DNA of 28,957 nt, from IMG/VR virus record IMGVR_UViG_3300022921_000073, positions 1 through 28,957 of that record; one strand, given 5' to 3'. The position numbers and the translations under genes were made by a program. The notes under the pieces are model-generated. The model did no database searches. It was not told the DNA's origin and was given only the letters and a program-made list of their open reading frames with translations. Positions 9,786 to 12,204 of this stretch are shown here, in pieces. How positions within the stretch are numbered: the first letter of the stretch is position 1; every line of letters starts with the position of its first letter. The DNA comes from a virus.

Positions 9786-10355
9786 ATGGGCGCACACAAA
9801 AATATCACATACACACCAATTGGTGATGGACGAAGAGCAGTAAATTTAAAATTGTTGTATAAGCACATTGGCGAACCTGATGATAACGGTTGTCGTCAAT
9901 GGCACGGCACAACCAACAATATTGGATATCCTTTTATGGGATTCAAAGCCATAGGCAACTGGACAAAAAGCAAGATGATACTTGCTACTCGTGTGCTACT
10001 TATGGTAAAATTAGGCAGGGAAATTTTGCCAGACCATCAAGCCAATCACACGTGTCATAATCGTTGGTGCATGAATATAGATCATATTGAAGAAGGCACA
10101 CAACACGAAAAACTTCAAAAGATGAAACAAGATAATCGCAGAAAACACATAAGGGGCGGTTGGATTATAGGCAAAGAATACCCACCCAAAAAACAAAATA
10201 GAAATTACAAGTATAGTGAAGAACAAATACAATTCTGCAGACTAAATCCTGTCCGAGACATACAACAAAAATATGGCTGGAATCAGCCTGAAGCAGAACG
10301 TGCTAAACGTGGAGTTAAATCCTTATATAAATGGTTGCCCTGGCCTGAAGCATAA
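9786..10355 (+). CDS. HNH homing-type endonuclease
   Basis: A 189-residue protein with an HNH nuclease core at about residues 86-105: ANHTCHNRWCMNIDHIEEGT, preceded by a helix (ATRVLLMVKLGREILPDH) typical of the HNH_3 family. The C-terminal ~60 residues include a possible DNA-binding helix-turn-helix (FCRLNPVRDIQQKYGWNQPE). Such genes are usually free-standing mobile endonucleases in phages; a packaging-linked nicking role is known for some HNH proteins, but this one is far from the terminase. No strong ribosome-binding site is seen; an out-of-frame ATG at 9772 opens only a short peptide. No intron is evident around it. Confidence 0.85.
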   Translation: MGAHKNITYTPIGDGRRAVNLKLLYKHIGEPDDNGCRQWHGTTNNIGYPFMGFKAIGNWTKSKMILATRVLLMVKLGREILPDHQANHTCHNRWCMNIDHIEEGTQHEKLQKMKQDNRRKHIRGGWIIGKEYPPKKQNRNYKYSEEQIQFCRLNPVRDIQQKYGWNQPEAERAKRGVKSLYKWLPWPEA

Positions 10356-10491: not shown

Positions 10492-10665
10492 ATGGACCCT
10501 TTTAAGACAACAATCCGTGGTTTAACTGACCCAAAAAGCAATACTCACACTATTGCACGTCAAATACAAAACAAGATTGTGACTTATGGTATTTGTAGTG
10601 ACAAAGAAACTGAATTTCTGACAACTTATATAAATACAAATGAGGAGAAACAAAATGGCAACTAA
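10492..10665 (+). CDS. Small hypothetical early protein, possibly leaderless
   Basis: A 57-residue protein (MDPFKTTIRGLTDPKSN...) of unknown function, basic at the N-terminus and acidic at the C-terminus. The ATG at 10492 is chosen because the predicted transcription start of the strong promoter at 10456-10484 falls at this codon, which would make the message leaderless; a longer frame back to 10420 would cross the inverted repeat and the promoter. Its end overlaps the start of the next gene by 11 bases. Being first behind a host-type promoter suggests early expression. Confidence 0.55.
   Translation: MDPFKTTIRGLTDPKSNTHTIARQIQNKIVTYGICSDKETEFLTTYINTNEEKQNGN
10629..10636 (+). promoter_or_regulatory. 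T4-late-type promoter element (TATAAATA)
   Basis: Exact TATAAATA inside the 3' end of the 57-residue gene and 18 bases before the ATG at 10655. It could give the next gene a second, late transcript. Confidence 0.5.
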
Positions 10666-11065
10666 ACAATCGTCCAACAACCGTTATCTATTGGTCGGTA
10701 TTGATTATAATCAACAAAGCAAATTGACTGGACGCCCCTATTGGCGTTTAACATTCATGCAGGTTAATGATGATTACACCACAGAACTATTTCATTGTGA
10801 TGTGGACGAATCAATGCAGAATTATAAGAAATCAGGGTGGCAAAATATCTTATCAAAAAGCAATCCTTTAGCAGTCTATGATGGTTTGCGTTTAACCAAA
10901 AGAACCAGCAGTGATGGATTGCCAGTTATAACAGCAGACAGCAAACCACAAGCTGTTATAGACAATATTGATATGGATGAGTTGCAGTCAATATATGATT
11001 TGATTGACAAGAAGCAAGCGTTTTTAAAACAAACAAATTATCAACGTCTATTTCAAACTGTTTAA
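10655..11065 (+). CDS. Hypothetical early protein
   Basis: A 136-residue protein of unknown function. The N-terminal half alternates strands (NRYLLVGIDYN, RPYWRLTFMQVN, TTELFHCDVD) in a way that could fit an OB-like fold; the C-terminus is helical (DELQSIYDLIDKKQAFLK). An OB fold would suit a single-stranded DNA- or RNA-binding protein, but this is a guess from secondary structure only. GAGGAG at 10642-10647 supports the ATG at 10655. Served by the sigma70-like promoter at 10456 and by the TATAAATA at 10629. Confidence 0.65.
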   Translation: MATKQSSNNRYLLVGIDYNQQSKLTGRPYWRLTFMQVNDDYTTELFHCDVDESMQNYKKSGWQNILSKSNPLAVYDGLRLTKRTSSDGLPVITADSKPQAVIDNIDMDELQSIYDLIDKKQAFLKQTNYQRLFQTV

Positions 11066-11090: not shown

Positions 11091-11098
11091 TATAAATA
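11091..11098 (+). promoter_or_regulatory. T4-late-type promoter element (TATAAATA)
   Basis: Exact TATAAATA 25 bases after the stop of the preceding gene and at the 5' edge of a ~540-base region without genes. It is placed to make the candidate large RNA at 11099-11640. Confidence 0.5.
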
Positions 11099-11575
11099 TA
11101 AAGAGTAAAAAGACACACAAGGTTAGCAGGCCGGTTATGATACTGCTGTGGAAAAGGTCCCCTGAGAAGGACACACGAAACATAATGAAACACTCCCGTT
11201 GGTAAATCCAACTATCCTGAAAGATGGAAGAGAGTCAGAGCGTGAGAACAAGGATACGCAACGTTTTGTTATAGTATGCATGTCACATACGAAAACACTT
11301 AGTAGCACGAACAGATGAAGTATAGCGGTAACGAATTCATCGACACATTATGTGTTGCCTTGGTAGGTGGGGAGTGAGCAAGAGATCCTGTGCTAGAGTG
11401 TATAAACAAAATACCTACTTCCAGTCTAGGCTGTATTGGACACTCCAGCATGAAGACAGATGGGACCTTTAATAGGTTCCGTCTGACTGCAACGTCGTGA
11501 CTCCGCATGAAGAGTGAAAGACATTCGCTTCGCTATGTCTCGAAAAACACGTTTTATCAAGAAGGCGATTGATGA

Positions 11576-11592
11576 AAAAAACGAAGTTTTTT
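11576..11592 (+). terminator. A/T hairpin near 3' end of large RNA (possible terminator)
   Basis: AAAAAAC (11576-11582), loop GAA, GTTTTTT (11586-11592). The stem is weak (one G-C pair) with a T-run as its 3' arm, so it could be a weak terminator for the large RNA or simply its 3'-terminal hairpin. Confidence 0.35.
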
Positions 11593-11594
11593 GA

Positions 11595-11630
11595 TATCAA
11601 AGATCACGTAGTGATCTCATTAAGTTGATA
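11595..11630 (+). promoter_or_regulatory. Leader hairpin upstream of the 91-residue gene
   Basis: AGATCAC-gta-GTGATCT (11601-11617) is a perfect 7-bp hairpin, extended by TATCAA (11595-11600) pairing with TTGATA (11625-11630) across a 7-base bulge. It ends at the AAGGA ribosome-binding site of the gene at 11647, so it may link the RNA region to that gene's translation. Confidence 0.4.
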
Positions 11631-11646
11631 AGGAATAAACAAAATC

Positions 11647-11922
11647 ATGACTAAGAAAAAAACAAAATTAAAACGATTACAGTATAGTCAAATCTTTCTG
11701 AGAAAACAATTTGAACTTGATGAAAGGGATCCTAGCGAATATATCCTATGTGAAGAAATTGCTTGGTTAAAGGAGCAGGGTTATCGAATGAGAACTATTA
11801 GACCCCGAAATGACGACTTGGAATGGATAACAGTTGAATATCACTTTTGGGTGCCAGAACGAGTTGCTACCTACGTGTTGTTGAGATGGCCTAACAGCAC
11901 ACAAGAATACATCGTAGAATAA
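11647..11922 (+). CDS. Hypothetical protein between two RNA regions
   Basis: A 91-residue protein with a Lys-rich start (MTKKKTKLKRLQYSQ) and a mixed alpha/beta body (CEEIAWLKEQGYRMRTIRP, then EWITVEYHFWVPERVATYVLL). Function unknown; the basic N-terminus would suit RNA or DNA binding. It is flanked on both sides by candidate non-coding RNAs, each led by a TAAATA element, which makes a role with one of those RNAs an attractive but untested idea. The only ribosome-binding site is AAGGA at about 11630-11634, rather far (12 bases) from the ATG. Confidence 0.6.
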   Translation: MTKKKTKLKRLQYSQIFLRKQFELDERDPSEYILCEEIAWLKEQGYRMRTIRPRNDDLEWITVEYHFWVPERVATYVLLRWPNSTQEYIVE

Positions 11923-11925: not shown

Positions 11926-12121
11926 ACTTTACACTGGGTTGTGATAGCCATTCTAAACCTAAGTGTGTTTGTATCCGTTGAGCAGGGCAAGGTGGACAAA
12001 GCAATTTGTCCATTTTGTTTGACTAATGGGACAAAATCAGTATAATTACTAATAGCAGTTCAACAATGATGTTGGGCTGTTAGAATTGTTCGCTTCAACA
12101 ATTCAAAACTTCTTATGTATC

Positions 12122-12140
12122 AAAAACCCACAAGGTTTTT
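12122..12140 (+). terminator. First of two tandem terminator hairpins
   Basis: AAAAACC (12122-12128), loop CACAA, GGTTTTT (12134-12140). The A-rich left arm and T-rich right arm could work in both directions. It lies just before the stronger terminator. Confidence 0.5.
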
Positions 12141-12143
12141 AGG

Positions 12144-12174
12144 GCCCTGTAATCTAACTGCAGGGCTTTTTTTT
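12144..12174 (+). terminator. Strong rho-independent terminator
   Basis: GCCCTG (12144-12149) pairs with CAGGGC (12161-12166) across an 11-base loop, followed by eight T (12167-12174). It separates the non-coding RNA from the early operon promoter at 12205. Confidence 0.85.
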
Positions 12175-12204
12175 GACTGCAAAATCAATAACTTACACGC
12201 CTGG

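Follow-up and report, generated by a model that had tools for sequence, protein, structure and literature searches.

Comparative sequence analysis of a new class of large structured non-coding RNA from two unrelated kinds of phage

GOLLD and ROOL are large, pseudoknot-rich phage RNAs of unknown function, which are often found in tRNA islands and which, together with OLE, are represented among the models of Rfam 15 according to a 2025 paper (PMC12286853). The phage RNA family described here resembles them in being large and rich in pseudoknots, and resembles GOLLD in having a conserved 3' part and a less conserved 5' part, but it is shorter (~400 nt against ~600-800). It also differs in that it matches neither covariance model (we take RF01998 to be GOLLD and RF03087 to be ROOL), is absent from the bacterial genomes and prophages searched here, and has no tRNA or tmRNA within 3 kb at any of the 128 listed loci, while its linkage to SegE endonucleases and its concerted repeats set it further apart.

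Other structured RNAs offer partial parallels. The HEARO or omega RNA of IscB and the reRNA of TnpB lie beside an endonuclease gene, as the RNA often does here, with an overlap of the gene's 3' end in one lineage; however, the present family matches no HEARO model and has no guide segment, its nuclease is of the GIY-YIG type and not HNH/RuvC, and that nuclease is often absent and occupies no fixed position, so that the obligate partner of those systems is missing. Mobile group I introns that carry GIY-YIG endonucleases (such as I-TevI in T4 td) are likewise structured RNAs of T4-like phages that move together with a homing endonuclease, but the family matches no group I or II intron model, is intergenic, and has the endonuclease outside the RNA fold. 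OLE is similarly ornate and strongly conserved, but it is bacterial and ~600 nt long, and it shares neither sequence nor model with the family. Among open-licence papers, with hardly any preprints, no description was found of this phage RNA or of a non-coding RNA linked to SegE or another homing endonuclease.

The gene-free stretch and the fold of its RNA

The stretch analysed (the window) is a 28,957-base IMG/VR virus record with genes for tail fibre, terminase, portal, major capsid and tape-measure proteins, and its terminase is 50% identical to that of lake phage DSL-LC06 and ~48% identical to those of Pelagibacter phages such as HTVC111P. No tRNA is present in it. Between the ORFs at 10640-11065 and 11647-11922, the original prediction placed a gene-free region of ~540 nt with the hallmarks of a large, ornate non-coding RNA, preceded by an exact TATAAATA, which is indeed there. 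The lack of genes is borne out for the + strand, where an ORF scan of the window found nothing of 60 aa or more between 11065 and 11647; the sole ORF overlapping the RNA region, of 69 aa, lies on the - strand (11299-11508). The structured RNA also stood, supported by covariation in 80 members that includes the pseudoknots, but its length did not, as the RNA proper (~11105 to 11513) is shorter. By these comparisons, the + strand of the window encodes a structured non-coding RNA of ~400 nt (Table 1), which is one of the most divergent members of the family and occupies a long branch in the RNA tree.

Folding alone could not settle this matter, since the single-sequence fold is only modestly better than those of 100 shuffles (z -2.71; 1/100 as good), whereas the comparative evidence does settle it. 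The model, counted on an alignment of 80 non-redundant members (A2), comprises 11 helices and 59 pairs with two pseudoknotted regions: P1 enters the loop of P5, and P10 and P11 cross P6 and P9. Its helices top the ranking by mutual information with product correction, and RNAalifold alone recovers most of the nested ones. The proportion of paired cells (97.5%, against 34-43% when the model is slid by 1-3 columns) is biased upward because the model derives from the same sequences, so that the stronger argument comes from the double changes (580 cells against 196 in shuffles) and from the covariation score (0.369 against 0.145 shuffled, reached by 0/500 shuffles). Compensatory changes, the mark of a structured non-coding RNA, occur in 33 pairs; homologues without covariation, named beforehand as the finding that would speak against the RNA, are therefore not what the 80 members present.

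Several helices had been proposed from the window alone. The 12-bp hairpin with only G-U exceptions (11457-11485) is present and conserved, with two G-U pairs in the window and, across the family, mostly G-U and C-G/U-G exchanges. The long-range two-part stem (11295-11308/11390-11401) was confirmed; it is perfect in the window, its inner part is compensatory in all four aligned pairs, and its outer part scores 5.39 with its own partner against 3.91 with shuffled partners (maximum 4.26). The crossing helix 11363-11368/11413-11418 holds as a pseudoknot, but a second one, 11371-11376/11441-11446, had to be rejected, given that its pairing (41.9%) is the same as that of shuffled columns. P2 belongs to a conserved 5' domain, AAGGUU-GCnG-GCC...CnGC, and P13 counts only as a tentative helix, since it shows one-sided changes and, as judged by eye, is not maintained in the second type of RNA described below.

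Table 1. Features of the RNA locus in window coordinates. The window row of alignment A2 is off by two bases in divergent parts, and the coordinates of P6, P9 and P11 were taken from the window sequence.
Feature	Position	Strand	Basis
TATAAATA, box resembling a T4 late promoter, which would put the start near 11105	11091-11098	+	sequence
Structured RNA, family core	11107-11513	+	nhmmer on 128 loci, 80-member alignment A2, covariation
P1 5' strand GACA, pairs with 11281-11284 in P5 loop, pseudoknot	11112-11115	+	5/6 pairs compensatory, 99.8% paired family-wide
P2 hairpin, GCAG/CTGC	11126-11129/11143-11146	+	compensatory GC/CG/AU; common to type-2 RNAs
P3 hairpin	11157-11160/11169-11172	+	4/4 pairs compensatory
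P4, encloses variable domain	11182-11188/11266-11272	+	3/7 pairs compensatory, 99.3% paired
P5 hairpin, loop pairs with RNA 5' end (P1)	11274-11278/11286-11290	+	5/5 pairs compensatory
P6 two-part long-range stem	11295-11299/11397-11401 and 11303-11308/11390-11395	+	inner part 4/4 compensatory; outer part beats partner shuffles
P7 hairpin GATGAA/TTCATC, conserved GGnAACGA loop	11314-11341	+	4 compensatory pairs
P8 hairpin CACA/TGTG, length variable	11344-11354	+	alignment columns 249-251:292-294 covary
P9, 3 bp TTG/CAA, crossed by P10 and P11	11360-11362/11379-11381	+	3/3 compensatory (GAC:GUC, GUG:CAC, UUG:CAA etc.)
P10 GTAGGT/ACCTAC, pseudoknot	11363-11368/11413-11418	+	97.9% paired, 3/6 pairs compensatory
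P11, inside P10	11370-11373/11386-11389	+	95.9% paired family-wide, 2 compensatory pairs; window register by eye
P12, 12-bp 3' hairpin	11457-11468/11474-11485	+	95.6% paired
Tentative P13	11147-11152/11502-11507	+	nearly invariant, one-sided changes only
Direct repeat 1, GCATGAAG	11448-11455	+	4-nt core same as that of repeat 2 in 79/80 members
Direct repeat 2, GCATGAAG	11505-11512	+	4-nt core same as that of repeat 1 in 79/80 members
Simple hairpin after RNA, possible 3' end	11523-11541	+	sequence

Distribution of the family and a second RNA type

The blastn search suggested along with the prediction yielded homologues in several terminase-related contigs, in which a non-coding stretch ~5 kb upstream of the terminase is 73-77% identical to window positions 11113-11298; in the same contigs the terminase DNA is mostly only 64-68% identical, below the identity of the RNA. 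With the window terminase as bait 80 related contigs were gathered (the flanking proteins, used in the same way, gave no relatives), and a gapped 19-base pattern taken from the alignment of homologues was run on IMG/VR. At least 100 stretches matched, on contigs that include sizes of 236, 145 and 120 kb, and each of those listed carries the element by profile search. The family comprises at least 128 loci, with 80 non-redundant full-length members among the matches listed.

The distribution of the RNA is restricted to phages. Among 84,980 genomes of bacterial and archaeal species the same pattern gave 19 matches, none of them real by profile search (0/19), and blastn searches found nothing in PLSDB plasmids (one family member as query) or among INPHARED phages (six members). 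The carriers are of two unrelated kinds, ~30-kb phages like that of the window and T4-like myoviruses. In the RNA tree the small-phage RNAs nest inside those of the T4-like phages, with starred branches forcing at least two changes of genome type, and the SegE tree is concordant, with the small-phage SegEs inside those of T4-like phages; these phylogenies show that the RNA has moved between unrelated phage lineages.

Whether the RNA was one of the known large phage RNAs or something new had been left undecided, with a search of Rfam for ROOL, GOLLD, HEARO and introns proposed as the check. Against the 4227 models of Rfam 15 the window has no match at gathering or permissive thresholds, and neither do eight relatives at gathering thresholds; 13 further relatives at E<=1 match no family, the permissive searches giving chance hits only. 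Since covariation establishes the RNA and Rfam 15 has no match for it, it is a new RNA class.

A second type of RNA occupies the same place in two relatives (L019 and L020) and shares only the 5' domain by profile. A pattern search for type 2 found 16 contigs of up to 349 kb, and Rfam 15 returned a single chance miRNA hit for it. Examined by eye, these RNAs share a 5' hairpin with AAGGUU and, in most cases, a core GUAGGU-GGG-UAAG-...-AGAG-CCC-...-ACCUAC followed by a 3' hairpin, and their P9 is readable as GUA:UAC, UUU:AAA, GUG:CAC or CCU:AGG. The ends and the pseudoknot core are mostly shared with the first type and the middle part is different (L226-L241; for example, L231:1590-2090); most are not near SegE, and they often have no AGGCA array (see below). 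At the corresponding locus of two relatives that lack the RNA (L036:1089-1900 and L048:4898-5700) an AGGCA-rich small ORF is followed by other non-coding sequence, which might represent further RNA types.

Putative transcription signals, neighbouring genes and repeats

There are five copies of TATAAATA in the window, all on the + strand (9746, 10629, 11091, 12245 and 15086), where 2.3 are expected and 11/100 shuffles reach five. An ATG ORF follows four of them at a distance of 11-40 nt, and the fifth (11091) has the RNA just after it; taken as a set, they would be T4-late-like promoters in a phage of ~30 kb. In relatives, CTAAATA or TATAAATA occurs ~52-76 nt upstream of the RNA. It is inferred from this sequence pattern that TATAAATA acts as a promoter. 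At the other end, the 3' flank folds below -6 kcal in 71/111 loci, and no U-run terminator was found in this flank. In several 30-kb relatives a small RNA whose hairpin, with its T-rich tail, is terminator-like lies before the large RNA, with CTAAATA between the two, an arrangement that points to the large RNA as its own transcription unit.

The small RNA, TAGCAG...CTGTTAGAA, was seen with its terminator-like hairpin in eight loci (L013, L019, L035, L036, L038, L040, L046 and L112), mostly ~220-240 nt before the large RNA of 30-kb relatives. The window has at 12019-12176 a near-consensus promoter (TTGACT-16-TATAAT, 11/12) and an intrinsic terminator (12141-12169), likely a second small RNA gene, whose homology to the small RNA of the relatives is only suggested by TAGCAG...CTGTTAGAA.

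One protein of ~149 aa is a nearly constant neighbour of the RNA, present at 101/128 loci listed, and belongs to the SegE_GIY-YIG family (Pfam PF19835; 122.7 bits, cut-off 25). In T4-like contigs SegE is upstream, with its stop codon inside the 5' end of the RNA, and SbcC/gp46-, gp47- and portal-like genes are nearby (gp47, gp55 and portal are presumed identities); in the 30-kb phages it lies 65-110 nt downstream. In three T4-like loci (L100, L110 and L123) a PDDEXK_15 endonuclease replaces it upstream of the RNA, and the window, devoid of SegE, has an HNH-like gene (9786-10355) 0.75 kb upstream. SegE also occurs without the RNA in isolates such as Melnitz, in which a close SegE was found and the RNA was absent from the 12.4 kb searched. 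The pair is therefore not obligatory. Moreover, because SegE is upstream, downstream or absent depending on the lineage, and type 2 is mostly not near it, the RNA is not a cis element of SegE.

An array of AGGCA(A) precedes the RNA in most of the 128 loci listed (for example, L150, L147 and L116), spanning ~650 nt and ending at the RNA: the 500 nt before the RNA contain 5.2 AGGCA on the RNA strand, compared with 0.06 on the opposite strand and ~0.6 in other places. The array runs through SegE, unrelated ORFs and non-coding leaders in more than one frame, and where SegE occurs without the RNA, its gene contains 0 or 1 AGGCA. Given that most loci share homologous upstream sequence (93/118 form one group, and the small groups have 0 to 5 sites each), the independent cases are only ~15. 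Evidently the array cannot be essential everywhere, since the window has none within 650 nt upstream.

The two direct repeats flank P12, and their 4-nt core is the same within a molecule in 79/80 members over 8-9 variants (ACAUGAA, ACAUAAU, ACAUAAA, ACAGAAA, GCAUGAA, ACGUGAA and rarer forms of the motif). In type 2 the flanking repeats are identical to each other in 7/16 loci (AGCGAA, AGCAAA, ACACAAU and AGAUAAU), and two closely related loci (L227 and L229) have a different repeat, GATCTGATG or GATCTAATG, switched in both copies together. No internal partner covaries with the repeats in the aligned columns, and a search for the motif or its complement near the RNA on the same contigs gave weak enrichment and no clear partner. 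Judged from the sequences, the repeats resemble a pair of sites, both of which have to fit one and the same partner.

Possible roles of the RNA

The reading that we favour, with a probability of roughly 0.6, is that this new class of large non-coding RNA (~400 nt) works in trans while the phage goes through its lytic cycle, either as a folded RNA or as the scaffold of an RNA-protein complex, and that it has spread with an endonuclease. Transcription of the RNA would begin at a phage-type promoter of its own, TATAAATA in the window, and end near the hairpin at ~11523-11541; the pseudoknotted core would hold up the 3' hairpin with its two copies of a short variable motif, and these would bind two equal sites of one partner, either a dimeric protein or a host or phage nucleic acid met twice, the motif changing whenever the partner changes. 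The SegE-type endonuclease would drive the spread of the RNA gene between phages by homing.

A role in trans is the simplest reading because the RNA is neither a cis element of one gene nor part of an RNA-guided nuclease of known plan. The former was rejected on account of the varying flanking genes and of an order that is reversed between lineages. A broader proposal, that the RNA works in cis as a leader or trailer in antitermination or mRNA stability, or else primes replication, draws on the position of the RNA in a transcribed row of genes, on the strand specificity of the AGGCA array, which crosses SegE frames, other frames and leaders, and on the lack of an annotated replication gene in the 30-kb relative DSL-LC06; it is nonetheless unlikely, as the RNA is conserved between lineages whose flanking genes differ, and T4-like phages possess their own replication machinery. 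That the RNA serves as guide or scaffold for the neighbouring SegE, as in the IscB and TnpB systems, would agree with the TnpB-like overlap of the SegE stop codon, the co-transfer of RNA and SegE seen in the trees, and the variable repeats, which could be short guides. But SegE is missing at many RNA loci and in reversed order at others, and beyond the last repeat most loci have only a short simple hairpin and no long variable guide; moreover, the GIY-YIG domain is not known to have an RNA-guided member. An optional nuclease and no guide stretch do not fit an RNA-guided nuclease of known plan, and we regard this role for SegE as improbable.

It has also been considered that the RNA is a novel ribozyme, able to splice or cleave itself, and forms the RNA half of a mobile element with exchangeable homing endonucleases, in the manner of group I introns. 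The variety of endonuclease neighbours (SegE, PDDEXK_15 or HNH-like) and the ribozyme-like pseudoknots and invariant loops are in keeping with it, but not the lack of any group I, group II or other Rfam ribozyme match, nor the intergenic location outside any reading frame, with its own promoter-like box and an order relative to the endonuclease that flips, and the proposal seems quite unlikely. Equally doubtful is a single mobile RNP system carried by phages and made up of RNA, AGGCA array and endonuclease, with the two identical and interchangeable repeats determining which nucleic acid or host factor is bound or cut; if true, this would be a selfish element of RNA and nuclease that resembles neither CRISPR nor OMEGA nor mobile introns. 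As for a chance structure or a decayed coding region, compatible with the moderate significance of single-sequence folding, it is refuted by the compensatory pairs and by gaps that are not multiples of three, and virtually no weight is left to it.

It is rare to find a class of large structured RNA that covaries extensively, and such classes have frequently proved to be ribozymes, RNP cores or RNA cages. The one described here is common in uncultured environmental phages; neither Rfam 15 nor the isolate phages searched contain it. Its concerted repeats provide an experimental handle on the partner of the RNA. It has passed, along with an endonuclease, from one phage lineage to another unrelated one, and its link to exchangeable endonucleases offers a test case for the ways in which phage RNAs spread.
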